From Comamonas koreensis (GTDB taxonomy: Bacteria; Pseudomonadota; Gammaproteobacteria; Burkholderiales; Burkholderiaceae_C): DNA of 64,000 nt. The translations under genes were made by a program, and so were the position numbers. The stretch is from positions 2,108,001 to 2,172,000 of the forward strand of contig NZ_CP043575.1 in NCBI RefSeq assembly GCF_014076495.1. The letters run 5' to 3'. The notes below the pieces were generated by a model, which was not told the origin of the DNA, did not search any database, and saw only the letters and a list, made by a program, of their open reading frames with translations. Positions 23,128-46,804 of this stretch are shown in pieces (position 1 is the stretch's first letter; each line of letters starts with the position of its first letter).

Positions 23128-23147
23128 TACTGTATATAAAAACAGTC
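23128..23147. promoter_or_regulatory. LexA (SOS) box upstream of the radical SAM gene
   Basis: TACTGTATATAAAAACAGTC: the CTGT-N8-ACAG core used by LexA in gamma- and betaproteobacteria, with the favoured A/T-rich spacer. It ends 13 bp before the ATG at 23161, so bound LexA would cover the start region of the promoter. The rnk start is 129 bp away on the other side. Confidence 0.85.
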
Positions 23148-23160
23148 ATAATCCGTTAGT

Positions 23161-24468
23161 ATGCCTGCCCGCCATCCCTCCACCCACACCGTTGACTCTG
23201 CCCCGTTTGAAGACGCACAGACCCTGCACCGCTGCGCGGACGAGCTGGATGGGCCTGTGCCGGTGCGTGTGCCACTGCCGGTGGCCCGCAAGGGGCGCGG
23301 CGCGGTTGGCACGCCCCGCCACCGTTTTGCCAGCGATGTGCGGGAATGGGCCGACGATGGCTGGACCCCAGCAGCTGCTCAAGCGGCCGTCGGCGCTGAT
23401 CCAGAATTGGATCTGGAAGAAGGCGCCTGGTGGCAGCAGGACGCCGAGAGCCTGCCGACCCAGGTGCACGCGGAGCGGGCGCGCAGCGCGATCCAGAAAA
23501 ACGACTCACCCGATATCTTCTTTGATCACTCGGTCAACCCCTACCGGGGCTGCGAGCATGGCTGCATCTACTGCTATGCCAGGCCGTACCACAGCTACCT
23601 GAACCTCTCGCCGGGGCTGGATTTTGAAACCCAGCTGTTTGCCAAGACCAATATTGCCCAGGTGCTCAAGGCCGAGATCAGCCGCCCGCGCTACCAGCCG
23701 GCCTCGCTCAATATCGGCTCGGCCACCGATTGCTACCAGCCCATCGAGCGGGAGCTGGGCCTGACGCGGCAGCTGATCGAGGTGCTCAGTGAGGCCGAGC
23801 ATCCTTTTTCACTGATCACCAAGAGCAGTGCGGTGGAGCGCGATATCGACCTGATCGCCGCTGTAGCGCGCAAGAATGCGGCGGCCGTCTACATCACGAT
23901 CACCAGCCTGGACCCACAGCTGACCCGCCTGCTCGAGCCCCGGGCTGCGGCGCCGCACCGGCGGCTGCGCACCATACGCCAACTGGCGGAGGCCGGCATT
24001 CCGGTCGGGGTGAGCGTCGCACCCCATATTCCGTTTTTGACCGAGGACATGGAAGAGGTGCTGGCGGCCGCGCGCGAGGCCGGCGCCACCACGGCCTTCT
24101 ACACCGTGCTGCGCCTGCCTTGGGAGCTCAACGGCGTGTTCCAGCAGTGGCTGCAGGCCCATTACCCGCAGCGCGCAGCCCGGGTAATGCAGCGGGTGCG
24201 CGACCTGCACCAGATCAGCGAGGCCGACCGGCTGCGCGGCAAGAGCTATGACAGCCAGTCGTTCAGCCGCATGAAAGGCCAGGGCCTGTGGGCCGACCTG
24301 GTGCGCCAGCGCTTTGTGCGGGCCTGCGCGCAGCTGGGCTATGGGCGCGAGCGGCAAGAGATGGATTGGCGCGGTTTTGAGGCCTGGCGCGCCCAGCAGC
24401 TGCAGCAGACAGTGCGCCAGGCGGGCGCCGCGCAGGCGCCGCACCCGGGGCAGGGCACGCTGTTTTAG
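23161..24468 (+). CDS. PA0069 family radical SAM protein (SplB-like)
   Basis: 435 residues. The radical SAM cluster motif CEHGCIYCYARP gives C131, C135 and C138; NPYRGCEHGC..C is typical of the spore-photoproduct-lyase-like branch (COG1533). GSATDCYQPIERELGLTRQ and SVAPHIPFLTEDMEEVL are further family signatures. Substrate is not known; the SplB relation and the LexA box point to a DNA-damage role. The start at 23161 lies 13 bp from the LexA box. Its TAG stop overlaps the eptA stop as TTAG. Confidence 0.93.
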   Translation: MPARHPSTHTVDSAPFEDAQTLHRCADELDGPVPVRVPLPVARKGRGAVGTPRHRFASDVREWADDGWTPAAAQAAVGADPELDLEEGAWWQQDAESLPTQVHAERARSAIQKNDSPDIFFDHSVNPYRGCEHGCIYCYARPYHSYLNLSPGLDFETQLFAKTNIAQVLKAEISRPRYQPASLNIGSATDCYQPIERELGLTRQLIEVLSEAEHPFSLITKSSAVERDIDLIAAVARKNAAAVYITITSLDPQLTRLLEPRAAAPHRRLRTIRQLAEAGIPVGVSVAPHIPFLTEDMEEVLAAAREAGATTAFYTVLRLPWELNGVFQQWLQAHYPQRAARVMQRVRDLHQISEADRLRGKSYDSQSFSRMKGQGLWADLVRQRFVRACAQLGYGRERQEMDWRGFEAWRAQQLQQTVRQAGAAQAPHPGQGTLF

Positions 24469-33705: not shown

Positions 33706-34494
33706 ATGCTTGCATGGAATGCCCAGCTCTACAGCCGGTTCGAGGACGAGCGCACGCGCCCGGCCGCCGAACTGCTGGCGCGCGTGGCCCTGCCCAGCGA
33801 TACCGCCTATGTGGTGGATCTGGGTTGCGGGCCGGGCAATTCCACCGAGCTGCTGGCCCAGCGCTTCGTGCAGGCACGGGTGCTGGGTATCGACCAGTCG
33901 CAAGACATGCTGGCCGCTGCGCGCCAGCGTCTTGCGCAGGTGCATTTTGAGCAGGGCGACATCGCCCACTGGCAGGCTCCACTGCACAACGGTCGTTTGC
34001 CCGACCTGATTTTTGCCAATGCGGCCCTGCAATGGGTGCCGGGCCACGCGCAGCTGCTGCCCCGCTTGATGGGCATGTTGGCCCCCGGTGGTGTGCTGGC
34101 CGTGCAGATGCCCGACAACCGCGATGAGCCCACCCACCGCCTGATGCGTGAGGTGGCAGCGCTGCAGCCCTGGGCTGCAGAAATCGGCGATCCGCATGCC
34201 TTGCGCACGGATTTGCTGTCTTTGAATGATTACTACGATGTGTTGGCCCGTGGTGCGCAGGTGGATGCCTGGCGTACGGCGTACCAGCACCCAATGGACA
34301 GTGCGGAGGCGATTGTCCAATGGGTTCGTGGCACGGGTCTGAGACCCTTTCTCCAGCCTCTGCGTGCCGAGTTGCAAACCAGCTTTGTGGCCGAGTACAC
34401 CCGCCGCATCGATGCCGCCTACGGCCTGCGCAGCGATGGCCAGCGCCTGCTGGCCTTTCCCCGCTTGTTTTTGGTGGCCAAGCGCCCCATCTGA
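33706..34494 (+). CDS. tam: trans-aconitate 2-methyltransferase
   Basis: 262 residues. The class I SAM motif is [15 protein letters not shown] (36-50), and the N-terminus [24 protein letters not shown] plus [10 protein letters not shown] are typical of Tam. It methylates trans-aconitate, an inhibitor of aconitase that forms spontaneously from cis-aconitate. It starts 16 bp after mdh and lies two genes upstream of acnB, which fits the housekeeping role. Confidence 0.93.
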
Positions 34495-34506
34495 CGATTA
34501 GTAGCC

Positions 34507-35493
34507 ATGAGTGTCTCCGCCATCCATCCCGCACAGGTACTGCTGGGCGCCCAGTCTGGGGCCCTGGCACTGCCGGTCTGCGACCACTACAGCGGTGTGG
34601 AAGACCGCATGCGCAAAAGCCTGGCCTTGCAGGCACAGATGATGCAAGAGTTTGGCCGCTGCGTGTTCGATGTGACCTTGGACTGCGAAGACGGCGCGGC
34701 CGTCGGCCAGGAAAAGGCCCATGCCCGGCTGGTTGCGTCGCTGGCCAAGAACGCCGCGCCCGGCGCCCGGGTTGCTGCCCGCGTGCATGCGGCCGACCAC
34801 GCCGCGCTGGCCGAAGATATCGCCACCATCGCCGGTGAGGCGGGCGAGCAGCTCTGCCACATTATGGTGCCCAAGGTCGAGTCGGTCGATGACATCGACC
34901 AGGTCGACCGCTTGCTGCAAGCGGCCACCAGCACCCCGGTGCCGCTGCATGCGCTGATCGAGTCGCCCCAGGCGGTGCACCGCGCTTTCGAGATTGCGGC
35001 CCACCCCCGCGTGCAAAGCATCAGCTTTGGCCTGATGGATTTTGTCTCTGCCCATGGCGGCGCCATCCCCTCGAGCGCGATGGGCGTGCAAGGCCAGTTC
35101 ACGCATCCGCTGGTGCTGCGCGCCAAGCTGGAGATCGCAGCCGCCTGCCACGCCTACGGCAAGGTGCCCTCGCACTGCGTGGTGACCGAGTTCAAGAACC
35201 CCGATGCGATGGAGCAGGCGGCCCGCCGTGCCTACGGCGAGCTGGGCTACACCCGCATGTGGAGCATCCACCCCGCGCAGATCCGCCCCATCCTGCAGGC
35301 CTTCGCGCCCACGCAGAGCCAGGTCGATGAAGCGGCCCGTATTGTGCGGGCGGCGGCGGACGCGCAATGGGCACCGATCAGCGTCGACGGCGTCTTGCAT
35401 GACCGTGCAAGTTATCGTTACTTTTGGCAAATTTTGGAGCGTGCCGCGCAGACGGGTTGTCCGTTGCCGGGTACAGTGCGGGAGTGGCTGTAA
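34507..35493 (+). CDS. CitE-like HpcH/HpaI CoA-ester lyase
   Basis: 328 residues, TIM barrel of the citrate lyase beta / malyl-CoA lyase family. Metal- and substrate-binding positions are visible: [17 protein letters not shown], the Glu in ALIESPQAV and the Asp in [14 protein letters not shown]. The missing citrate lyase alpha and gamma genes argue against citrate fermentation; a CoA thioester such as malyl-CoA, citramalyl-CoA or beta-methylmalyl-CoA is more likely. It follows tam by 12 bp, in the mdh-acnB group. The exact substrate cannot be assigned from sequence. Confidence 0.85.
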
Positions 35494-35546
35494 CCATCCG
35501 GGTCCAGCCCTTTTCCTGTTTCTTGCGTTGTATCGCGGGAGTTGTT

Positions 35547-36140
35547 ATGAAAAATCGCGTGATTTCTTTGTTGGTCCTGGTGCCTGCGCTGACGTTGTCC
35601 ATGGGCAGCGTGCAGGCGCAAGAGAAAAAGGCGGCCAAGCCAGTGGCTGCCAAAACCACCGCCGCCAAGAAGGCACCGGCCAAAAAGGCCCCTGCCAAGC
35701 GTGCGTCCACCGCCAAAAAGGGCGCAGCGGTTGCCGCTGGTGCCGGCGCAGCCGCTGCGGCCGCGTCCATTCCTGCCCAGCAGACCCTGACCCCCGCCGA
35801 GCTGGCCATTGCCGAGCAGGTCTACCAAGGCCGCATCAGCTGCGAGCTGGGTGCCTCGATCAATATCGCTAAGGACTCGGTCAACCCCGGCTACTTCTTC
35901 GTTGAAGGCAAGGGCTTCAAGTACCACATGGCTCCCGTGGCCACCTCGACGGGCACCATCCGCCTGGAAGACCAGCACGCTGGCGCCATGTGGCTGCAAG
36001 TGGCCAACAAGTCGATGCTGATCAACCGCAAGCTCGGTCAGCGCCTGGCCGACGAATGCATGAGCCCTGAGCAAAACCAGGTTGCCGAAGCCATCAAGAA
36101 AAACCCACCTGCCGCACTGTTTGAAGGCAACGGCCGCTGA
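35547..36140 (+). CDS. exported protein with Ala/Lys-rich linker and two-Cys domain
   Basis: 197 residues. A signal peptide ends near VQA-QE (24/25). Residues 26-75 are a histone-H1-like KKAPAKKAPAKRA low-complexity stretch, followed by an Ala run. The C-terminal domain (90-185) has only two Cys, C99 (GRISCELGASINI) and C171 (ADECMSPEQ), bracketing a beta-rich stretch with YHMAPVATSTGTIRL and WLQVANKSMLIN; this layout recalls the MliC lysozyme-inhibitor fold, but the match is loose. The basic linker could bind cell wall, LPS or nucleic acid. It sits between the CoA-ester lyase and acnB (70 bp gap). Confidence 0.75.
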   Translation: MKNRVISLLVLVPALTLSMGSVQAQEKKAAKPVAAKTTAAKKAPAKKAPAKRASTAKKGAAVAAGAGAAAAAASIPAQQTLTPAELAIAEQVYQGRISCELGASINIAKDSVNPGYFFVEGKGFKYHMAPVATSTGTIRLEDQHAGAMWLQVANKSMLINRKLGQRLADECMSPEQNQVAEAIKKNPPAALFEGNGR

Positions 36141-36210
36141 TAAGAACAGCGGCGCGGCTGCCCGAGGCCTTGCGAGCGCCCCACCATTGAAATAGAGAAC
36201 CGGAGAACGT

Positions 36211-38796
36211 ATGTTGAAAGCCTACCGCGACCATGTGACTGAGCGTGCCGCTCTGGGCATCCCCCCACTGCCGCTGGATGCCAAGCAGGTCGCTGACTTG
36301 ATCGAGCTGATCAAGAACCCGCCTGCCGGTGAAGAAGCATTTCTGCTCGATCTGCTGACCCACCGCGTGCCGCCAGGCGTGGACGATGCCGCCAAGGTCA
36401 AGGCTTCCTTCCTGGCAGCCGTGGCACATGGCGACCTGAAAGTGGCGCTGATCTCCAAGGCCAAGGCCACCGAGCTGCTGGGCACCATGGTGGGTGGTTA
36501 CAACGTGCATCCGCTCATTGAGCTGCTCGATGACGCAGAAGTGGCCGCCGTGGCTGCCGATGCGCTCAAGAAGACGCTGTTGATGTTCGACTTCTTCAAT
36601 GACGTCGCAGACAAGGCCAAGGCCGGCAATGCCAAGGCCAAGGAAGTGATGCAAAGCTGGGCCGACGCCGAGTGGTTCACCTCGCGCCCCGCAGTCGACA
36701 AGAAGATCACCGTCACCGTGTTCAAGGTGCCCGGCGAGACCAACACCGACGACCTGTCGCCTGCGCCAGACGCCTGGAGCCGCCCCGACATTCCTCTGCA
36801 CTACCTCGCGATGCTGAAGAACACGCGTCCTGACGCGGCCTTTAAGCCTGAAGAAGACGGCAAGCGCGGCCCGATGCAGTTCATCGACGACCTGAAGAAA
36901 AAGGGCCACCTGGTGGCCTACGTCGGCGACGTGGTCGGCACCGGTTCTTCGCGCAAGTCGGCAACCAACTCCATCGTCTGGGCCACCGGCCAGGACATTC
37001 CCTTTGTGCCCAACAAGCGCTTTGGTGGTGTGACCCTGGGCGGCAAGATCGCTCCGATCTTCTTCAACACCCAGGAAGACTCGGGCTCGCTGCCGATTGA
37101 AGTGGACGTCTCCAAGCTGGAGATGGGCGACGTGATCGACGTGCTGCCCTACGACGGCAAGATCCTCAAGAACGGTGAGACCGTTGCCGAGTTCCAGCTC
37201 AAGAGCGATGTGCTGTTTGACGAAGTGCGCGCCGGCGGCCGTATCAACCTGATCATTGGCCGCTCGCTGACCGCCAAGGCCCGCGAAGCGCTGGGCCTGC
37301 CCGCATCGACCGTGTTCCGCCTGCCCCAGGCGCCTGCCGAATCCAAGGCCGGCTTCACCTTGGCGCAGAAGATGGTCGGCCGCGCTGTCGGTCTGCCAGA
37401 AGGCCAGGGCGTGCGCCCAGGCACCTACTGCGAACCGCGCATGACCACCGTGGGCTCGCAAGACACCACGGGCCCGATGACCCGCGATGAGCTCAAGGAC
37501 CTCGCTTGCCTGGGCTTCTCCGCCGACATGGTGATGCAGTCCTTCTGCCACACGGCCGCCTACCCCAAGCCCGTGGACGTCAAGACCCACCGCGAACTGC
37601 CCAACTTCATCAGCAATCGTGGTGGCGTGGCCCTGCGTCCTGGTGACGGCGTGATCCACAGCTGGCTCAACCGCCTGCTGCTGCCTGATACCGTGGGTAC
37701 CGGCGGTGACTCGCACACCCGTTTCCCTATCGGCATTTCCTTCCCCGCAGGCTCGGGCCTGGTGGCCTTCGGTGCTGCCACCGGCGTGATGCCTCTGGAC
37801 ATGCCTGAATCGGTGCTGGTGCGCTTCAAGGGCGAAATGCAGCCGGGCGTGACCCTGCGCGATCTGGTGCACGCGATTCCGCTGTACGCGATCAAGGCCG
37901 GTCTGCTGACCGTCGCCAAGGCCGGCAAGATCAACGAGTTCTCCGGCCGCATCCTGGAGATCGAAGGCCTGCCAGACCTGAAGGTCGAGCAAGCGTTCGA
38001 GCTGTCCGACGCGTCCGCCGAGCGCTCTGCCGCTGGCTGCACGATCAAGCTCAACCCCGAGCCGATCAAGGAATACCTGACCTCGAACGTGGTTCTGATG
38101 AAGAACATGATCGCCGACGGTTATGCCGATGCCAAGACGCTGCAGCGCCGTATCGAGAAGGTTGAAGCCTGGCTGGCCAAGCCCGATCTGCTCGAAGCCG
38201 ACAAGGATGCCGAATACGCGCACATTATCGAGATCGACCTGGCCGACATCAAGGAGCCTATCGTTTGCTGCCCCAACGACCCGGACGACGCCAAGTTCCT
38301 GTCCGAGGTGGCCGGCACCAAGATCGATGAAGCCTTCATCGGCTCGTGCATGACCAACATCGGCCACTTCCGCGCTGCAGCCAAGCTGCTGGGCGGCCAG
38401 CGTGACATCCCCGTCAAGCTGTGGGTGGCACCACCTACCAAGATGGACCAGAGCGAGCTGATCAAGGAAGGCCATTACGCTGCCTTTGGTACCGCCGGTG
38501 CCCGCACCGAAATGCCCGGCTGCTCGCTGTGCATGGGCAACCAGGCCCAGGTGCGCGAAGGCGCGACGGTCATCTCGACCTCGACCCGCAACTTCCCCAA
38601 CCGCCTGGGCAAGAACACCAATGTGTTCCTGGGCTCGGCCGAGCTGGCCGCGATCGCATCGCGCATCGGCAAGCTGCCCACCAAAGAAGAGTACCTCCAG
38701 GAAATGGGCGTGATCGATGCCGACAAGGCCTCCGTCTACCGCTACATGAACTTCAACGAAATCTCGGAATACGCCGAGGTTGCCGAGAAGATCTAA
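36211..38796 (+). CDS. acnB: aconitate hydratase B / 2-methylisocitrate dehydratase
   Basis: 861 residues, matching the bifunctional AcnB. The N-terminal HEAT-like domain (1-160) is followed by the swivel domain and the cluster domains; [4Fe-4S] ligands lie in SCMTNIGHF and [10 protein letters not shown] (E. coli C710, C769, C772). [14 protein letters not shown] and [13 protein letters not shown] are substrate-binding segments. It interconverts citrate and isocitrate. The ATG has GGAGAA upstream. It closes the TCA block with a strong terminator after it. Confidence 0.97.
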
Positions 38797-38839
38797 GCCT
38801 TTTGGCCTGCGTGCAGGGGTTTGCAGCCTCTGCCCTTGC

Positions 38840-38862
38840 AACCCGCTTCGGCGGGTTTTTTT
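38840..38862 (+). terminator. intrinsic terminator after acnB
   Basis: AACCCGC (38840-38846) pairs with GCGGGTT (38851-38857) around a TTCG tetraloop and runs into seven T residues. It ends the mdh-acnB group. Confidence 0.9.
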
Positions 38863-39021
38863 ACGCCATTTGCGTGGGGTATGCATGCTGCGTCGTGCAG
38901 AAAAAACTGAGGTATGCACAATGTTCGCTGGCCGCAGGCTGGCGCCTGTGCGCCCGCGGGCCTGGCTGCGCCAGGTTTGCGCGCCCAAGTTTTGAAATGC
39001 CCGACTGGAGAAATGAGTCCG

Positions 39022-39471
39022 ATGACGATGTGGAAATATGTGGTGGCGCTGATGGTGCCTGGTGTGATGGCCAGTGCCAGCCTGGCGCAGGTGCAGAGTG
39101 GCGCCACGGACAGCGCAGCCTCTGCCGAGGTGACAACTGCGCAGGCGACGCCTTGCGACGGCGCGGTGATGTATGCGCTGGACAACTGGTACCAGGTGCA
39201 GCGCTGCGAAAGCGCGGGCTTCTTGCTGCCCGAAGACATTGCCCAGAGCAGCGCCGATTTTCTGGCCGCGCACCAGGGCATCGAGCAGGACGTGCGCAGC
39301 CAAAGCCCGCGCGCGCAGCAAGCGCTGGCCTTTGCCGGCACCAGCCCCTGGGACTGGAATGACCCGGGCAACCGCAGCACCCTGGAAAACCTCTGCCGCG
39401 ATACCTTGCAGTCGCAAAAGCGCATGGTGACGGAGCCCAGCTGGCGCGAATCGCTCAGCTGCGCGCGCTGA
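39022..39471 (+). CDS. small exported protein of unknown function
   Basis: 149 residues with a signal peptide (WKYVVALMVPGVMASASLAQ, cleavage near 22). The mature part has four Cys (ATPCDG, QRCES, ENLCRD, SLSCAR), suggesting two disulfides, and is mostly helical (ALDNWYQVQ, ADFLAAHQGIEQDV). I recognise no family. Three ATG codons compete (39013, 39022, 39028); GGAG at 39007-39010 is too close to the first and I use the second. It is flanked by the acnB terminator and a MITE-like repeat, so it is probably monocistronic. Confidence 0.65.
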   Translation: MTMWKYVVALMVPGVMASASLAQVQSGATDSAASAEVTTAQATPCDGAVMYALDNWYQVQRCESAGFLLPEDIAQSSADFLAAHQGIEQDVRSQSPRAQQALAFAGTSPWDWNDPGNRSTLENLCRDTLQSQKRMVTEPSWRESLSCAR

Positions 39472-39594
39472 TAGAGCGGAGCGGGCAGGGCGCTCAAACT
39501 CCAAACGTCCAGCCTTTGTGGGGCTAACCAATCTGAAGCCTTGCAGCAGCCTGTAAAGCCAGGCTGCCCAGGCCGCCAGGGCCGTGTCGCCAAA

Positions 39595-39755
39595 GGATCC
39601 TCTGCAGAACCCTCGCCAAGCGGGATGGGCGCGGATCGGGATGAGACGCAAGGCGTCTTTTGAAGGCAATAGCCGTAGCTATTGCCGAGGAAGGCAACGC
39701 AGCGGATCGCCCGAGACCGCGTTCAGACCACGGCAGGGAGTTTTGCAGAGGGTCC
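39595..39755. repeat. 161-bp MITE-like element with imperfect inverted ends
   Basis: The left end GGATCCTCTGCAGAAC (39595-39610) and the reverse complement of the right end GGACCCTCTGCAAAAC (39740-39755) match at 14 of 16 positions. Inside are two hairpins: AGACGC/GCGTCT (39644-39658) and GGCAATAGC-CGTA-GCTATTGCC (39665-39686). No protein is encoded. The right end touches the stop codon of the 97-residue gene. It looks like a non-autonomous mobile repeat; copy number elsewhere cannot be seen here. Confidence 0.65.
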
Positions 39756-40049
39756 CTAGCCCAGGCGCACGTCGAAGTACGCCTCTTCCACGCCAATCCC
39801 CTGAAAGCCCGCCTGCCGCGCCTTGTCAAAGGCCTTGAGCCAGGCGCGTGCCAGCACCTCTTGCTGGGCGGAGATCTCACCGCCTTCGGCGGCATCGGTA
39901 AATGCACTCAGGGCTTCGAGCATGTCTTGTTGATCGGGGAAAAACTTGCCGATCTCTCTGGCAAAGCGCGCTTCTGCGCGGTGCTTGAGGGCGGGATCAA
40001 TGCCGTGGCAATCCTGCAGGCTGATGGCGATCGGGGTAGAGACTTCCAT
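39756..40049 (-). CDS. 97-residue orphan protein under double LexA control
   Basis: 97 residues, no signal peptide, acidic, probably helical: EIGKFFPDQQDMLEALSAFTDAAEGGEISAQQEVLARAWLKAFDKARQAGFQGIG. I do not recognise a family; it is not YebG, DinI, SulA or ImuA by eye. Two LexA boxes lie 12 and 48 bp upstream of the ATG, so it should be strongly damage-induced. No good Shine-Dalgarno is seen. The 3' end is bounded directly by the 161-bp repeat; the stop codon TAG lies at the junction. Codon use matches the neighbours. Confidence 0.75.
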   Translation of the reverse strand: MEVSTPIAISLQDCHGIDPALKHRAEARFAREIGKFFPDQQDMLEALSAFTDAAEGGEISAQQEVLARAWLKAFDKARQAGFQGIGVEEAYFDVRLG

Positions 40050-40060
40050 AGATTAGGGTG

Positions 40061-40078
40061 ACTGTTTAAATAAACAGT
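40061..40078. promoter_or_regulatory. LexA box 1 of the 97-residue gene
   Basis: ACTGTTTAAATAAACAGT contains CTGT-N8-ACAG and is a near-perfect palindrome with an A/T-only spacer. It is 12 bp before the ATG at 40049 on the minus strand. Confidence 0.8.
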
Positions 40079-40095
40079 GTCTAGTATCCCTGCTA

Positions 40096-40113
40096 ACTGT
40101 TTATTTGTACAGT
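40096..40113. promoter_or_regulatory. LexA box 2 of the 97-residue gene
   Basis: ACTGTTTATTTGTACAGT again contains CTGT-N8-ACAG. Its centre is 35 bp from that of box 1. On the other side the nearest plus-strand gene start (yhhQ) is 206 bp away, so control of the minus-strand gene is the simpler reading. Confidence 0.8.
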
Positions 40114-40280
40114 TTTTTTATCGCGATAGTCATTGAATGTGTGTGTCGGCTGCGCTGCGCTGGCAAAGCGGGTGGGGCGGCCTTGGGCCCAGTGGCCACC
40201 CGGGTTTGCGCAGCGCGTATACAATACGGGCCCCTTGTGCCTGGGAACGCCGCATTGTTCCTGGGCCACTTTTCGTAGCC

Positions 40281-40313
40281 ATGGGTTCCCTCGCCCCCAT
40301 TGACCAAAAAGGA
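40281..40313 (+). promoter_or_regulatory. candidate preQ1-I riboswitch in the yhhQ leader
   Basis: P1: ATGGG (40281-40285) pairs with CCCAT (40296-40300). After P1 comes TTC, as in the conserved GGUUC; then CCT (40289-40291) can pair with AGG (40310-40312) across an A-rich third loop (TGACCAAAA, 40301-40309) to form the H-type pseudoknot. The AGG is part of the Shine-Dalgarno AAAGGA, five bases before the yhhQ ATG, so ligand binding would block translation. The layout parallels the Thermoanaerobacter tengcongensis preQ1-I aptamer (CTGGG...CCCAG, A-rich tail, AAGG end). Confidence 0.72.
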
Positions 40314-40318
40314 ATGTC

Positions 40319-40996
40319 ATGAACTCCGCTCATGCCGTGCAGACCCCTGTCTCGCGCGTGCCCTTCTATCTCTCCTTGCTGGTGGCCTTCCATATCGCCA
40401 TCGTCATTGCCAGCAACTACCTGGTGCAGCTGCCCATCTCGCTGTTGGGTTTTCACAGCACCTGGGGGGCTTTCAGCTTTCCCTTTATCTTCCTGGCCAC
40501 CGACCTGACCGTGCGTCTGATCGGCAAGGCCGAGGCGCGCCGCGTCATCACCCGCGCCATGCTGCCTGCGCTGCTGGTGTCCTATATCGTTGGCGTCATC
40601 TTCCATGAAGGGCGCTTCAACGGCTGGGAGGCGCTGCAGACCTTCAACAGTTTTGTCTTCCGCATTGCGCTGGCCAGCTTTGCTGCCTATGTGCTGGGGC
40701 AGTTGCTCGACATCCAGGTGTTTGACCGCATTCGCCAAAAGAGCCACGCCTGGTGGATGGCACCCGCTGCCGCCTCGGTGTTTGGCCAGGCGCTCGATAC
40801 TGCTGCCTTTTTCTCCATCGCCTTCTGGCGCAGTGCCGACCCCTTCATGGCCGCCAACTGGGTGGAGATCGCACTGGTGGACTATGTGATCAAGCTGGCG
40901 GTGAGCCTGCTGCTGTTTGTGCCCGCCTATGGCGTGGTGCTGGCCGCGCTGGTGCGCTCGATGCGCATGCCGGCGGCGCCTGCTGCGGCATCCTGA
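40319..40996 (+). CDS. yhhQ: queuosine precursor transporter YhhQ (VUT family)
   Basis: 225 residues with six membrane helices. SNYLVQLPISLLGFHSTWGAFSFPFIFLATDLTVRLIGKAEAR is the typical N-terminal half, and AAASVFGQALDTAAFFSIAFW the second-half signature. E. coli YhhQ imports preQ0 and preQ1 for queuosine tRNA modification. The upstream preQ1-I riboswitch candidate supports the assignment. No other que genes are in the window. Confidence 0.94.
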   Translation: MNSAHAVQTPVSRVPFYLSLLVAFHIAIVIASNYLVQLPISLLGFHSTWGAFSFPFIFLATDLTVRLIGKAEARRVITRAMLPALLVSYIVGVIFHEGRFNGWEALQTFNSFVFRIALASFAAYVLGQLLDIQVFDRIRQKSHAWWMAPAAASVFGQALDTAAFFSIAFWRSADPFMAANWVEIALVDYVIKLAVSLLLFVPAYGVVLAALVRSMRMPAAPAAAS

Positions 40997-41033
40997 GAGC
41001 CTTTGGCAGGTGCCAGCGCCTGAGGGGGCTCTA

Positions 41034-41343
41034 AGAACCTGTTCAAAGTCTCTACGCAGCCGCGTTGGAGTGCAATCGGGATGAGTTCGAAGGGATGGAA
41101 CGTAGCTTGCACCTGGGTGCAAGCAAGGGCCAGCGCGCAGAAATCGCCCGATTTCACTCCAACCCGCAGGGACAGTGGCTTTGCGCTGCCCGGGAAGGGG
41201 CGCCCGGCTAGGGAGCGGTCTGCGTCGTTGCAAATCCTCGCAATAGCCGGGCTATTGCTGCGGTATTGCGCGGCTGGGCGCCCCCCTCGCATCCCATCTC
41301 GCAAAGACACTGTCGCGGCGCGAGGAGACTTTGAACAGGTTCT
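41034..41343. mobile_element. 310-bp MITE-like element with 19-bp perfect inverted repeats
   Basis: AGAACCTGTTCAAAGTCTC at 41034-41052 is repeated exactly, inverted, at 41325-41343. A TA lies at each boundary (41032-41033 and 41343-41344), compatible with a TA target duplication of the IS630/Tc1-mariner kind. Internal pairs: a 17-base arm at 41064-41080 with its inverted copy at 41147-41163 (one mismatch), GCTTGCACC/GGTGCAAGC at 41105-41124 and GCAATAGC/GCTATTGC at 41240-41258. No transposase is encoded. It lies between yhhQ and the ferritin gene and fills most of this 442-bp gap. Confidence 0.75.
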
Positions 41344-41364
41344 AAGCTACATGCCGCAATAACA

Positions 41365-41394
41365 AAGGCCGCCAGAATCAAATCTGGCGGCCTT
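41365..41394 (-). terminator. intrinsic terminator after the ferritin gene
   Basis: AAGGCCGCCAGA (41365-41376) pairs perfectly with TCTGGCGGCCTT (41383-41394) around a 6-base loop. On the minus strand the stem is followed by a T-rich TGTTATT, so it can end the ferritin transcript. Confidence 0.75.
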
Positions 41395-41438
41395 ATGCAT
41401 GGGGCGGTGCGCTTTGGTGGCGCACGGCGCCGTACCAA

Positions 41439-41903
41439 TCAGGTCTGGCTTTGCAGGTAGTTGGGCAGGCCCATCATATGGATCAGGCCGAGTTGCTTTT
41501 CCAGCCAGTAGGCATGGTCTTCTTCGGTGTCGCGCAGCTGGGCCAGCAGAATGTCGCGGCTCACATAGTCGCTGTGCTTCTCGCACAGTTCCATGCCCTG
41601 GCGCAGGCCGGCACGCACTTCGTATTCGGTGTCCAAGTCCTTTTGCAGCATCTCGGGCACGGTCGCGCCGGGCGTGAATTCCTTGGGGCGCATATCGGGG
41701 CGGCCGCCCAGCATCAGGATGCGGCGCAGCAGTGCGTCGGCATGCTGGGTCTCTTCCTGCATCTCATGGTCCAGGCGGGTGAACAGCTTGGTAAAGCCCT
41801 GGTCTTCGTAAATGCGCGAGTGGGCAAAGTACTGGTCGCGTGCGGCCAATTCGCCACGCAGCAGGTCCTTGAGGTAGTCGACGACGTCGGGATGGCCTTG
41901 CAT
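41439..41903 (-). CDS. ftnA: bacterioferritin-family ferritin lacking the heme Met (FtnA type)
   Basis: 154 residues, four-helix ferritin. Ferroxidase ligands are present: E18 ([11 protein letters not shown]), E51 and H54 (EETQHAD), and the later EYEVR and DTEEDHAYW. The position of the heme-ligating Met52 of E. coli Bfr is Thr here. From memory, the sequence is closer to P. aeruginosa FtnA (once called BfrA), which carries no heme, than to BfrB, down to the MQGHP N-terminus and NYLQSQ end. It stores iron as a 24-mer. The ATG at 41903 gives this N-terminus; a longer frame to 41993 is unlikely. I saw no convincing Fur box upstream. Confidence 0.92.
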
Positions 41904-42111
41904 GTTCTTGTTCTCGGGTGAGTTTGCGAAGCCTGCAGTATCGCGTGTCTGCGTGCGCTTGGTTGCGAAAGCAGCCAAATGCCCATGTAGCACCGCTCTG
42001 GATGCGGGCTGTAAGCAGATGCATTCGCATTGCCTATGCAGCCAGTGCGGCTCGGGTCAGGGCTGGGTCGCACCGGTTCTGGCAAGATCAACGGTTTTGA
42101 AGGGAGCGAGC

Positions 42112-42930
42112 GTGAACCCATCCGAAGCCTGGCAAGAGCAAGTGCACCCCATCGACCCGGCAGTGCGCGCCGACATCGAAGCCAAGCTGGCGCAGATCGA
42201 GATCGAGCACCAGGTGCGCATTCTGTTTGCCTGCGAGTCCGGCAGCCGGGGCTGGGGCTTTGCATCGCCCGACAGTGACTACGATGTGCGCTTTATCTAT
42301 GCACCGCGCCTGCCCTGGTACCTGAGCGTGAGCGAGCAGCGCGATGTGATCGAGCTGCCTATCTCCGATGTCTTCGATGTCAATGGCTGGGAGCTGCGCA
42401 AGGCGCTGGGCCTGCTCAAAAAGGGCAATGCCACCTTGATTGAATGGTTTGATTCTCCCGTGGTCTACCAGGCCGATCCGCTGTTTGTGGCCGACATGCG
42501 CGCCGCCATCGAGCGCGTGCACCTACCCGAGCGCACGCACTACCACTACCTGCACATGGCGCGCAAAAACTACCGCGAGTACCTGCAGGGCGAGACGGTG
42601 CGGCTCAAGAAATACCTCTATGTGCTGCGCCCGCTGCTGGCCTGCCTGTGGCTGGCCGAGGGCCGGGGCGTGGCACCGATGCGCTTTCAGGATCTGGTCG
42701 ATGGCACGGTCGCTGACCCGGCCGTGCTTGACGCGATTGCGGCGCTGCTGGTGGTCAAGCGCGCGGCCAAGGAATCCGAGCATGGTGCCGCGATGCCGGT
42801 GCTCAATGCCTTTATCGAGACGACCTTGGCGCAGCTGGAAGCCGCCCCCGCGCCGCAGACACCGAGCGTGGACTTTGCGCCGCTCGATGATTTGCTGCTG
42901 CGCACCGTGCTGAGCGGCCACACGGGTTGA
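42112..42930 (+). CDS. YcgL-type predicted nucleotidyltransferase
   Basis: 272 residues. The nucleotidyltransferase signature is ESGSRGWGFASPDSDYDVRF (43-62), with two metal-binding Asp in SDYDVR. A helical C-terminal domain follows (HYHYLHMARKNYREYL, KKYLYVLRPLLACLWL). The family (COG3541) is linked in some genomes to RNA repair; target unknown. The start is GTG at 42112 with AGGGAG five bases upstream. It is divergent from the ferritin gene, and its stop directly touches that of the LysR gene. Confidence 0.85.
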   Translation: MNPSEAWQEQVHPIDPAVRADIEAKLAQIEIEHQVRILFACESGSRGWGFASPDSDYDVRFIYAPRLPWYLSVSEQRDVIELPISDVFDVNGWELRKALGLLKKGNATLIEWFDSPVVYQADPLFVADMRAAIERVHLPERTHYHYLHMARKNYREYLQGETVRLKKYLYVLRPLLACLWLAEGRGVAPMRFQDLVDGTVADPAVLDAIAALLVVKRAAKESEHGAAMPVLNAFIETTLAQLEAAPAPQTPSVDFAPLDDLLLRTVLSGHTG

Positions 42931-43839
42931 TCAGGCGCCTGGGTCAGGGGCTTGCACGGCCTGCACGGCGGATTGCAGGCTGAGCAGCAGCTTGTGCACC
43001 AGCGGGTTGTCTGGCTGGCTGCGCCAGACCGCCAGCAGCTCGGACTGCGGCTGCTCGCCCAAGAGCGGAATAAACACCACATTGGGCATGCCCACGCGCT
43101 GCAGCGCGGCGGGCACAATGGCCGCGCCCTGGCCCAGCGATACGAGCGACAGCACCGACAACCAGTGCCGCACCTCATGCCGCACCTCGGGCGCAAAGCC
43201 ATGGGCCATGCACATCTGGTAGATGCGCTGGTGGTAGAGCGGCGAGACAGCGCTGGAGAACAGCACCAGGCGCTCGTGCTTGAGCTGCGCCAGATCGAGC
43301 GCGGCATGGCCCGCCAGCGCATGCGGGCGCGGCAGGCAGGCCACAAAGGGCTCTTGCATCAGCAGCTGGCTGCGCAGGCCTTCGGGCAGCATCACCGGAT
43401 GCACCAGGCCCATGTCCAGCTCGGCCTGCTGCAGGCCCAGCAGCTGCTCGGCGCTGTTGAGCTCGCGCATGTCGATGCGCACCTGCGGATGCGCGTTCTG
43501 AAAATGGGCCAAAGCCTGGGGCACGCCCCGGTAGAGCGCCGAGCCGACAAAGCCCAGGCGCAGATGGCCGCGCACGCCCTGGCCGACATCGCGCGTCTCC
43601 TGCGCCGCCTGCCCGGCCAGCGCCAACAGTTGGCGCGCGCGTGGCAGCAGGTGGGCGCCGGCAGCGGTCAGGCGCACGCCCTTGCTGCTGCGCTCAAACA
43701 GCGCAGCGCCAATTTCTTCTTCCAGCTGGCGGATGGCGACCGACAGCGGCGGCTGCGAGATGGACAGGCGCTGGGCCGCCCGGCTGAAGTGCAGCTCTTC
43801 GGCCAGCGTTGCAAAGTAGTTCAGCAGCCGCAGCTCCAT
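42931..43839 (-). CDS. LysR family transcriptional regulator
   Basis: 302 residues: a winged helix at 1-60 (MELRLLNYFATLAEELHFSRAAQRLSISQPPLSVAIRQLEEEIG) and a type 2 periplasmic-binding-like effector domain, with C-terminal similarity to the BenM/CatM group that binds small aromatic or dicarboxylic acids. It is divergent from the acyl-CoA dehydrogenase operon at 44020 and very probably controls it. The 180-bp gap contains an AT-rich stretch with ATACGTAT at 43861, a possible operator. Confidence 0.93.
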   Translation of the reverse strand: MELRLLNYFATLAEELHFSRAAQRLSISQPPLSVAIRQLEEEIGAALFERSSKGVRLTAAGAHLLPRARQLLALAGQAAQETRDVGQGVRGHLRLGFVGSALYRGVPQALAHFQNAHPQVRIDMRELNSAEQLLGLQQAELDMGLVHPVMLPEGLRSQLLMQEPFVACLPRPHALAGHAALDLAQLKHERLVLFSSAVSPLYHQRIYQMCMAHGFAPEVRHEVRHWLSVLSLVSLGQGAAIVPAALQRVGMPNVVFIPLLGEQPQSELLAVWRSQPDNPLVHKLLLSLQSAVQAVQAPDPGA

Positions 43840-44019
43840 GGGGGCTCCTATCTATATTTAATACGTATCGATAAAGATTTTAATAATATTTGACGCGAAT
43901 AGCGCTGGCTGCTGAAATGGCGCAAAACCTCGCGACCCGAGCGCGAACCCGCGCACAAAACACGCCTAACCATGCGAGCCGGCAGAGCATCGCCGCCAGC
44001 CCGCCATCAGGAGACCCGC

Positions 44020-45726
44020 ATGTCCGCACCGGACCCATCCCAGCGCAGCGCCATGGCGCAGGTGGCGCAAGCCCATGCCCACCCCGTGCCCGATCGCCAC
44101 GGCAGCAATTTCTACAGCACCGACCCGGCTTTGCAGCAGCTCTTGCAGCTCTACCTGCCCGCCGATCTGCTGGCCCATCTGCAGCCCTATCTGCAGCGCA
44201 TGGGCGAGCTCGCAGGCGGCCGCATCGATGAGCTGGCCAGCATTGCCGACAAGAACCCGCCCACGCTGGAGCACCGCAGCCGCGCCGGGGAAGACCGCCA
44301 GCGCATCATCAAGCACCCGGCCTATGAAGAGCTCGAACGCATTGCCTATGGCGAGTTCGGCCTGCAGGCGATCTCGCACCGCGACGACATGCTGGGCTGG
44401 CAGGGCAAGATGCCGCCCATCGTCAAATATGCGCTGACCTATCTGTTTGTGCAGTCCGAGTTTGGCCTGTGCTGCCCCTTGTCGATGACCGATTCGCTCA
44501 CGCGCACCTTGAAGAAGTTCGGCGCGCCGGAGCTGGTCGCCAAGTACCTGCCGCAGCTGCTGTCGCTGGACTGGGACAGCCAGGCCCAGGGCGCCATGTT
44601 CATGACCGAGCAGGCCGCCGGCTCCGACATCTCCAACACCCAGACCCTGGCCCAACCGCAGGCCGATGGCAGCTGGCGCGTGACGGGTGACAAATGGTTC
44701 TGCTCCAACCCTGATGCCGAGTTTGCGATGGTGCTGGCCCGTGTCGAAGGCGCGCCCGCTGGCATGAAGGGCATCTCGCTCTTTTTGCTGCCGCGCAAGC
44801 TCGATGACGGCAGCCAGAACCACTACCGCATCATTCGCCTCAAGGACAAGCTGGGCACCAAGTCGATGGCCAGCGGCGAGATCCGCATGGAAGGCGCCAC
44901 GGCCTACCTGATCGGCGAGCAGGGCCGGGGCTTTGTGCAGATGGCCGACATGGTCAACAACTCGCGCCTGTCCAATGGTGTGCGCTCGGCCGGCATGATG
45001 CGCCGCGCGGTCGCCGAGGCCGAGTTTGTCGCCAGCGAGCGCGTGGCCTTTGGCAAGCGCCTGCAGGACATGCCGCTGATGCAGCGCCAGCTCGACAAGC
45101 TGCGCGTGCCCGCCGAGCAGGCGCGCTCCATGGTGTTCCAGACCGCGCAGACCCTGATGCGCTCGGACGCGGGCGACAAGGAGGCCTATGCGCTGCTGCG
45201 CATCCTGACGCCGATGATCAAGTTCCGCGCCTGCCGCGATGCGCGCAAGGTCACAGGTGACGCGATGGAAGTGCGCGGCGGCTGCGGCTACATCGAGGAA
45301 TGGACGGACCCGCGCCTGGTGCGCGATGCCCACCTGGGCTCCATCTGGGAAGGCACCAGCAATATTGTCGCGCTCGATGTCGTGCGCGCCATCCAGCGGG
45401 AAGGCTCGCTGCCGGTGCTGCAGGCCTATCTGCACGGCCTGCTGGCGCATTGCAGCATCAGCGCAGGCTACCGCCAGACGCTGGATGCCGCTCTGGCCCG
45501 CGCCAGCGCGCTGGCCGAGCGTGCCGCGCAAGACGGCGGCGCGGTGCTGGCCCGCCAGGCTGCCACCGGTCTGTACAACTGCACCACCGCCATTGCGATG
45601 GCCTGGGAAGCCGGCCAGATCGACTCGGCCGAGCGCCTGCGTCTGTCGCAACTGGTGCTGCTGCACCGCGTGTTGCCGCGCGACCCGTTGGCGAGCGACG
45701 CCATTCCCGCCGATTGGCTGGACTGA
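44020..45726 (+). CDS. AidB-like acyl-CoA dehydrogenase
   Basis: 568 residues. FMTEQAAGSDISNTQT (FAD segment), WRVTGDKWFCSN and the C-terminal GSIWEGTSNIVALDVVRAIQREG place it in the AidB-like branch; the Arg/Lys-rich DNA-binding C-terminus of E. coli AidB is not apparent, so a metabolic role is more likely. CAGGAG precedes the ATG at 44020. It starts an operon with a Bug-type binding protein and a CaiB CoA-transferase, consistent with uptake, CoA activation and oxidation of an organic acid. Confidence 0.9.
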   Translation: MSAPDPSQRSAMAQVAQAHAHPVPDRHGSNFYSTDPALQQLLQLYLPADLLAHLQPYLQRMGELAGGRIDELASIADKNPPTLEHRSRAGEDRQRIIKHPAYEELERIAYGEFGLQAISHRDDMLGWQGKMPPIVKYALTYLFVQSEFGLCCPLSMTDSLTRTLKKFGAPELVAKYLPQLLSLDWDSQAQGAMFMTEQAAGSDISNTQTLAQPQADGSWRVTGDKWFCSNPDAEFAMVLARVEGAPAGMKGISLFLLPRKLDDGSQNHYRIIRLKDKLGTKSMASGEIRMEGATAYLIGEQGRGFVQMADMVNNSRLSNGVRSAGMMRRAVAEAEFVASERVAFGKRLQDMPLMQRQLDKLRVPAEQARSMVFQTAQTLMRSDAGDKEAYALLRILTPMIKFRACRDARKVTGDAMEVRGGCGYIEEWTDPRLVRDAHLGSIWEGTSNIVALDVVRAIQREGSLPVLQAYLHGLLAHCSISAGYRQTLDAALARASALAERAAQDGGAVLARQAATGLYNCTTAIAMAWEAGQIDSAERLRLSQLVLLHRVLPRDPLASDAIPADWLD

Positions 45727-45808
45727 ATAACAGATACGCAGACCGGCAGAGACACCCCCATCAATACGCAGGCAGCAGACCTGCATCCCTCAATACATGG
45801 AGACAAAC

Positions 45809-46804
45809 ATGCAAAAATTTTCCTTGAACACGGCGGCGCTCGCCCTCGCATGCCTGGCCGGGCTGGGTGGCGTGGGCATCGCCTCGGCGCAAGCCGCTGA
45901 CAAATTCCCCGACCGCCCGATCATGTTCACCGTACCCTTCCCACCGGGCGGCCCCACCGATGCGATGGCCCGCATTCTGGCGACCGAGCTGACGCGCGAG
46001 CTGGGCCAGAGCGTAGTGGTGGAGAACCGCGCGGGCGCAGGCGGCAATATCGGCGCCGAGTATGTGGCGCGCGCCAAGCCCGATGGCTACACCATCATGT
46101 TCGGCACCTCGGGGCCGCTGGCGATCAACAAGAGCTTGTACAAGTCGATCAGCTACGACCCGCGCACCAGCTACGCGCCCATCATCTATGTGGGCTACCT
46201 GCCCAATATCCTGGTGGTGAAGGCCAGCCTGCCAGCCGACAACGTGCAGGGCCTGATCGCGCTGGACAAGGCCCAGCCCGGCAAGCTCAATTTCGCGTCA
46301 TCGGGCAATGGCGCTTCGTCGCACCTGGCCGGGGTCATGTTCAACAACCTGGCGGGCACCAAGCTGCAGCACATTCCCTACAAGGGCACGGGCCCGGCGC
46401 TCAATGATTTGCTGGCGGGACAGGTCGACATGAGCTTTACCGATATCCTGACGGCCATGCCCTATATCAAGGCAGGCAAGGTCAAACCGCTGGGCGTAGC
46501 CACCGCGCGCCGCTCCAGCGCCTTGCCCGACATTCCCACCGTGGCCGAGCAGGGCATGGCCGGGTATGACGTGGGTGTTTTCTTCGGTGTCGTCGCCCCC
46601 AAGGGCACGCCGCCCGAGCGTGTGCAGGTGCTCAACCAAGCCTTCTCCAAGGCGCTGGATTCGGACAGTGTGAAAAAGGCCTTTGCCGCGCAGGGCCTGG
46701 AGGCATCACCGGACCGGTCGCCCGCCTATCTGGGGCGCTTTATCGGTACTGAAGTAGACAAATGGCAGGCAGTGGTGCAGCAGTCGGGTGTGACGCTGGA
46801 CTGA
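45809..46804 (+). CDS. Bug family tripartite tricarboxylate transporter substrate-binding protein
   Basis: 331 residues. A signal peptide (to about AQAAD, residue 30) precedes the typical FPDRPIMFTVPFPPGGPTDAMARILATEL, VVVENRAGAGGNIGAEYVARAKPDGYTIMFGT and FGVVAPKGTPPERVQVLNQAF. Bug proteins bind carboxylates in the periplasm and feed TTT transporters; no TctA/TctB membrane genes are nearby, so an orphan partner elsewhere is needed. The ATG at 45809 has GGAGA at good spacing; 45797 is the alternative. Confidence 0.94.
   Translation: MQKFSLNTAALALACLAGLGGVGIASAQAADKFPDRPIMFTVPFPPGGPTDAMARILATELTRELGQSVVVENRAGAGGNIGAEYVARAKPDGYTIMFGTSGPLAINKSLYKSISYDPRTSYAPIIYVGYLPNILVVKASLPADNVQGLIALDKAQPGKLNFASSGNGASSHLAGVMFNNLAGTKLQHIPYKGTGPALNDLLAGQVDMSFTDILTAMPYIKAGKVKPLGVATARRSSALPDIPTVAEQGMAGYDVGVFFGVVAPKGTPPERVQVLNQAFSKALDSDSVKKAFAAQGLEASPDRSPAYLGRFIGTEVDKWQAVVQQSGVTLD

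Follow-up and report, generated by a model that had tools for sequence, protein, structure and literature searches.

What might a small gene do that stands behind two LexA boxes and encodes a protein of no named SOS family? The gene lies in the window, by which we mean the whole 64-kb stretch analysed here, part of a single-contig genome of 5.22 Mb. Its start codon is supported by M1 and E2, which are invariant among ten close relatives. The product is acidic (~10.7 kDa, pI 4.8), and AlphaFold2 modelled it with a pLDDT of 89.9 as a strand (residues 7-12), three helices (19-36, 40-54 and 61-81) and a second strand (91-96). The predicted fold is a single small domain of beta-alpha-alpha-alpha-beta order, mostly helical, in keeping with the small, helical 97-residue protein of the original prediction. 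The features discussed here are listed in Table 1.

Table 1. Positions in the window of the gene under study, its LexA boxes, its neighbours and a second LexA-boxed gene
Feature	Position	Strand	Evidence or remark
Gene of new family, subfamily A, 97 codons, ATG start	39756..40049	-	ORF, homologues, AlphaFold2 model
Proximal LexA box CTGTTTATTTAAACAG (- strand reading)	40062..40077		perfect CTGT-N8-ACAG, 12 bp before ATG
Distal LexA box CTGTACAAATAAACAG (- strand reading)	40097..40112		perfect CTGT-N8-ACAG, 47 bp before ATG
Promoter-like pair, weak: TGTACA 40106-40111 / 17 bp / GATACT 40083-40088	40083..40111	-	8/12 matches, by eye
yhhQ, queuosine-precursor transporter, divergent neighbour	40319..40996	+	NF008406 327 bits; synteny
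acnB, aconitase B	36211..38796	+	Pfam; synteny
Hypothetical ORF between acnB and the window gene, 185 codons as listed, start uncertain	38914..39471	+	
PA0069-family radical-SAM gene	23161-24468	+	product ends QGTLF
LexA box of the PA0069-family radical-SAM gene	23130-23145	+	15 bp before gene

The window copy sits at a stable chromosomal locus. In six genomes of the genus it is accompanied by acnB and by the divergent gene that we take to be yhhQ. The closest relatives of this copy are in genus g19, three of them next to acnB and one next to yhhQ. The ORF between acnB and the window gene gave no Pfam match. No tRNA was found from 34000 to 46000 of the window, and there is accordingly no hint of a tRNA integration site at the gene. 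A LysR gene adjoins the copies L022, L023/L071 and L070, which suggests that these derive from the same ancestral locus.

Both upstream sites read CTGT-N8-ACAG without mismatch, as originally claimed. The earlier distance of 12 bp for the proximal site stands and that of 48 bp for the distal one becomes 47 bp; the earlier box ends (40061-40078 and 40096-40113) denote the same sites as 18-mers, with one flanking base on each side of the 16-mers. The window holds three perfect sites, two of them being this pair, 35 bp apart, where dinucleotide shuffles led us to expect 0.75; one of 100 shuffles reached three. Genome-wide, the pattern occurred 44 times and a reversed control pattern 14 times. It is the SOS-box consensus of most Betaproteobacteria according to a statement in PMC6595937. 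A promoter scan upstream of the window gene at a threshold of 9 of 12 found nothing, and the TGTACA element of the weaker pair in Table 1 falls inside the distal box.

Perfect sites in the same genome also precede imuA, two radical-SAM genes, and genes that we take to be recA and umuD-like. The genome encodes LexA, and lexA has two one-mismatch sites of its own, 19 bp apart. A LexA-type operator is thus present at the window gene, together with LexA and the same motif at SOS genes of the genome. We consider LexA control of the window gene very likely on this sequence evidence.

Other LexA-type sites of this genome are worth recording. Two small ORFs of 163 and 109 codons (L046 and L056) lie behind perfect sites at 2,365,739 and 4,606,492; neither has an NCBIfam match, and both are candidates for further SOS genes. 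Three identical sites at 565,532, 584,191 and 594,619 (L004/L060, L005 and L006) precede what look to us like copies of a class 1 integron integrase gene. The site at 2,026,622 (L014) lies 34 bp before a gene that presumably encodes the B subunit of a type II topoisomerase.

The gene had been described as an orphan. This did not hold: by profile search, 50 of the 53 genus genomes and 61 of 399 genomes of the GTDB family contain relatives. In the GTDB-family scan mostly 12 candidates were scored per genome, so that absences from whole genomes are possible misses. An alignment-guided scan added 24 relatives in viral contigs. The genome itself encodes a distant paralogue (L049, at ~3,399,100, -), whose start lies 40 bp behind a perfect LexA box. 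With the window protein as tblastn query, plasmid records yielded one match (Variovorax) and phage records none.

The second part of that description, that the gene belongs to no known SOS family, was borne out, as the window protein has no confident Pfam or NCBIfam match. For the family as a whole, no confident match was found in Pfam, NCBIfam, PHROG or PDB, and no confident structural match in PDB or viral libraries. Two uncharacterised BFVD proteins reached a Foldseek probability of 0.99, yet with E-values of 0.02 and 0.079. The best PDB sequence match was a transposase (E 0.051). We dismissed SigX4, AcrF3, similar lone weak hits and a PHROG match at E 0.048 as chance-level. Among the papers listed by the literature searches we recognised none that names the family; a mention in Sanchez-Alberola 2015 or Erill 2004 is possible. 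By sequence similarity the window gene is a member of a conserved family of hosts and prophages, and that family is best read as an undescribed, putatively LexA-repressed SOS family of Comamonadaceae-like bacteria and their prophages.

We then counted boxes upstream of all relatives examined, accepting at most one mismatch and a position within 100 bp. At least one box was present in 104 of 135 distinct upstream regions and absent from 31; this overall figure is the safe count, since box status was already known when the groups given below were defined. Single-base shuffling of these regions gave one box in 2-3% and two boxes in 0-0.07%. Homologues lacking conserved boxes would have spoken against the original prediction. 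For the close family this was not the case: two boxes were found in all 35 distinct upstream regions, comprising chromosomal subfamily A (12/12 boxed, all with two, 35 bp apart) and prophage or unplaced subfamily A (23/23, all with two). Subfamily B within the genus was boxed in 31 of 31 regions (30 with two), relatives in other genera in 36 of 37 (mostly a single box, three with two), and the paralogue type in two of two, both with two boxes; the own-genome paralogue's region, with one box, was left out of the 135. All 30 loci retrieved in the genus search had at least two upstream boxes with at most one mismatch. Two hits outside the family were also boxed, one perfectly and one with a mismatch.

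None of the 30 relatives set apart in this count was boxed. Ten of them, the 'phage-like distant' rows, were set apart partly because of their box status; L179-L181, L095, L097 and L101 among them form a subclade in the tree described below, the boxless L088 sits on the window gene's side, and L182, L106 and L107 are absent from it. For L101 the perfect box lies 134 bp upstream, beyond the limit. The far group takes in L139, which by a later reading equals L210, and for distant ORFs a rule fixed the choice of start codon. Double operators had also been said to mark, as a rule, tightly controlled, strongly induced or toxic SOS genes. Two boxes do not in themselves indicate toxicity, because they are normal in the close family and lexA itself has two.

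Two boxes ending at most 50 bp from the start were present at 20 of the 24 viral loci; judged by these boxes, the viral copies are small prophage genes putatively under LexA, as known prophage antirepressor genes are. In 18 of the 24 viral contigs the family gene follows a codirectional gene for an HTH-S24 (CI-like) repressor, in some cases after one or two intervening small predicted ORFs. All three repressors tested have matches among repressor PHROGs; in the three contigs tested for them, RecT, Erf and exonuclease genes lie further along. Among the adjoining repressors the N-terminal parts are of several unrelated kinds and the cleavage region is of two: one contains Ala-Gly, the usual repressor cleavage site, and the other Ser-Met-Gly-Pro-Gly. 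The repressors of L162 and L169 are nearly identical in the S24 half and differ in the DNA-binding half, a sign of module swapping.

A weakly resolved tree of 73 rows and 103 columns separated two sides, A and B (94/97, not starred). The window gene falls on side A, as do the paralogue type and 14 of the 17 phage rows; side B comprises the gene commonly found in the genus and in other genera. Taking matches of at least 100 bits as A and of less than 50 bits as B, we found B in 41 of the 53 genus genomes, A alone in nine (one of them 59% complete), both in six and neither in three. B is absent from all six genomes with the acnB-locus copy. A therefore seems to substitute for B in evolution, in the few related lineages where such replacement is seen. 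This apparent substitution argues that phage and host versions share one job, and on these sequence comparisons we suggest a single shared function.

Two distant branches carry additional motifs. In an N-motif branch, where several hits carry the name Pseudorhodoferax and one that of Variovorax, the domain follows a short motif and a Pro-rich linker. The motif QLx[LF]x[LMI] is found near the N-terminus of 18 of 20 extended proteins, the other two reading QRELPI and QLSLND; seven further hits have no extension in their gene model. The branch is predicted to have the same order of elements as the window protein, plus a low-confidence tail. In genus g21, where 8 of 13 places were read and the six long members counted, the proteins end in QGELF, QINLF, QIDLF, QPDLFH, QASLF or QSSLF (QxxLF in 6/6). 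Five of these six were scored against the family profile, and two have a perfect box ~55 bp before the matched start. L214 also ends in QINLF and was left uncounted (profile E 0.11); L219 has no tail motif. The N- and C-terminal motifs resemble hexameric and pentameric clamp-binding motifs as presented in parts of PMC4564189 and PMC9690074, and the g21 tails lack the Leu at position 2 of the published consensus.

In the window protein a loose scan found neither QLxLF nor QLxLxL; its only match, QQDML, lies inside a predicted helix and is missing in close relatives. Most relatives also have no linear clamp motif. Further matches of the scan, to N-terminal QEAIF in five subfamily-B proteins and to several stretches inside proteins, were not counted. 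The clamp link could be a branch-specific addition. The attachment of a clamp-like hook at opposite ends of one domain would be difficult to account for if the domain did not work at the clamp or the fork.

Similar tails occur on other boxed genes. Homologues of the PA0069-family gene of the window are present in 28 of the 53 genus genomes (29 places); 27 were examined, and all 26 with a readable end finish in Q-x-x-L-F. In the own genome, a TIGR03916 radical-SAM gene at ~3,059,100 (-; L048) has two perfect LexA boxes 129 bp apart, and its product ends in QMALF. These boxed radical-SAM proteins suggest that LexA-controlled proteins with clamp-like tails may be common here.

We tentatively propose, with a confidence somewhat short of even, that the family acts at the replication fork and is used by host and prophages alike. 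In an undamaged cell LexA would occupy the distal box, which covers the likely -35 region, as well as the proximal box, which lies between promoter and ATG. Once RecA filaments trigger LexA self-cleavage, the window gene would be derepressed; we infer this regulation from the conserved sequence and the known behaviour of LexA. The product, acidic and of predicted beta-alpha3-beta fold, would influence DNA synthesis at the fork, either assisting or restraining polymerase use at the sliding clamp. We favour a fork role because in two distant branches a linker joins the domain to a clamp-like motif, N-terminal in one branch and C-terminal in the other, and because host and phage versions seem to have taken each other's place during evolution. 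The window protein, which has no clamp motif, would work through the domain itself or through a partner. Several observations weigh against the proposal: most of the family is free of the motif, the g21 tails deviate from the consensus at position 2, neither an explanatory fold match nor a promoter of 9 of 12 was found, 31 upstream regions are boxless (L088 on the window gene's side among them), and the A-for-B replacement is confined to few related lineages. The inhibitor or repair accessory factor of the original prediction is possible, and the clamp-motif branches point to the replication fork as its place of action.

Four other functions were weighed against this proposal. The protein could be functionally analogous to DinI or RecX and modulate RecA filaments or LexA/S24 cleavage. 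Its synthesis during SOS would then adjust the response, and prophages would have kept it to adjust how their own S24 repressors are cleaved. The S24 repressor gene ahead of most viral copies fits such a role, and so does the distribution, a host copy plus prophage copies under LexA, which resembles that of the DinI homologues described as LexA-controlled in Gifsy prophages in part of PMC3121763. DinI was not found in the own genome. However, a kinship with DinI, suggested by eye for the N-terminus, was rejected (hhalign probability with E. coli DinI 0.8%, no PF06183 match), and a modulator leaves the clamp-like motifs of two branches unexplained; we regard it as unlikely. Another candidate function is that of a LexA-controlled prophage antirepressor that inactivates S24 repressors and was later kept by hosts. 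The position behind the repressor with LexA boxes of its own would suit it, and small LexA-controlled antirepressors are known (GfoA, Tum and AntC, as covered in PMC3121763). Yet the adjoining repressors differ strongly in both their DNA-binding parts and their cleavage region, and subfamily B is widespread in the genus, with no repressor noted among the printed neighbours of B loci. One repressor type, moreover, keeps Ala-Gly, which we take to mark a self-cleavable type, and should need no antirepressor. We consider this function improbable.

LexA typically controls cell-division inhibitors, which are also found in prophages, and no SulA match was obtained in the own genome (12 of 23 candidates scored), so a replacement of SulA was considered. 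The family, however, matches neither SulA nor other named families (no Pfam match to PF03846 in the window protein or 22 relatives), and the clamp-like motifs point to DNA rather than FtsZ, which leaves a division inhibitor with little probability. SulA models did hit 27 of the 399 family genomes, with mostly 12 candidates scored per genome, and mostly in open frames of ~250-390 codons; given this length and the weak score of the own ImuA on the same models, we read these hits as probably ImuA-like. A toxin that stops replication by blocking the clamp would account for the clamp-like motifs of two branches and for the tight double LexA control; SocB is reported in part of PMC9690074 to use the usual motif to bind the clamp and so halt elongation. 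Against it, no small partner gene recurs beside the family gene across the loci compared, and the window protein and most members have no motif. A SocB-like toxin is very improbable.

Returning to the fork reading, we put forward, more cautiously still, that the family represents an unnamed class of LexA-repressed fork regulators, exchanged between chromosomes and prophages and hooked to the clamp separately in at least two lineages, through which damage would let the cell or an inducing prophage reset polymerase traffic. The SOS regulon counts as well charted. To damage tolerance in a large group of environmental bacteria, a conserved family under LexA in hosts and prophages, nameless in the libraries searched, would add a component. 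Should the clamp link hold, it would be a further SOS route at the fork besides translesion polymerases and their helpers, and prophages would gain a handle on the same step at induction.

Several known systems share parts of this picture. DinI, in Enterobacterales and their phages, is a small LexA-controlled protein with host copies and, like the window protein, begins with a beta strand followed by a helix. Its prophage copies are likewise placed under LexA in the relevant part of PMC3121763. The present family differs in having no sequence relation to DinI, in its beta-alpha-alpha-alpha-beta order and in its clamp-motif branches. GfoA/GftA of the Gifsy prophages and Tum of phage 186 are also small LexA-controlled prophage genes, whereas the window family is in addition a stable host chromosomal gene. 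SocB of Caulobacter shares a clamp-like motif with some relatives, but it is the toxin of a toxin-antitoxin pair (described as such in part of PMC12795458), and the family has no recurring partner gene and mostly no motif. As for damaged templates, imuA of the own genome has a LexA box, as the window gene does. The ImuA/ImuB/DnaE2 mutasome and UmuDC are LexA-controlled and handle damaged templates at the clamp; the window protein, in contrast, is unrelated to them, small and single-domain, and is encoded at a locus of its own.
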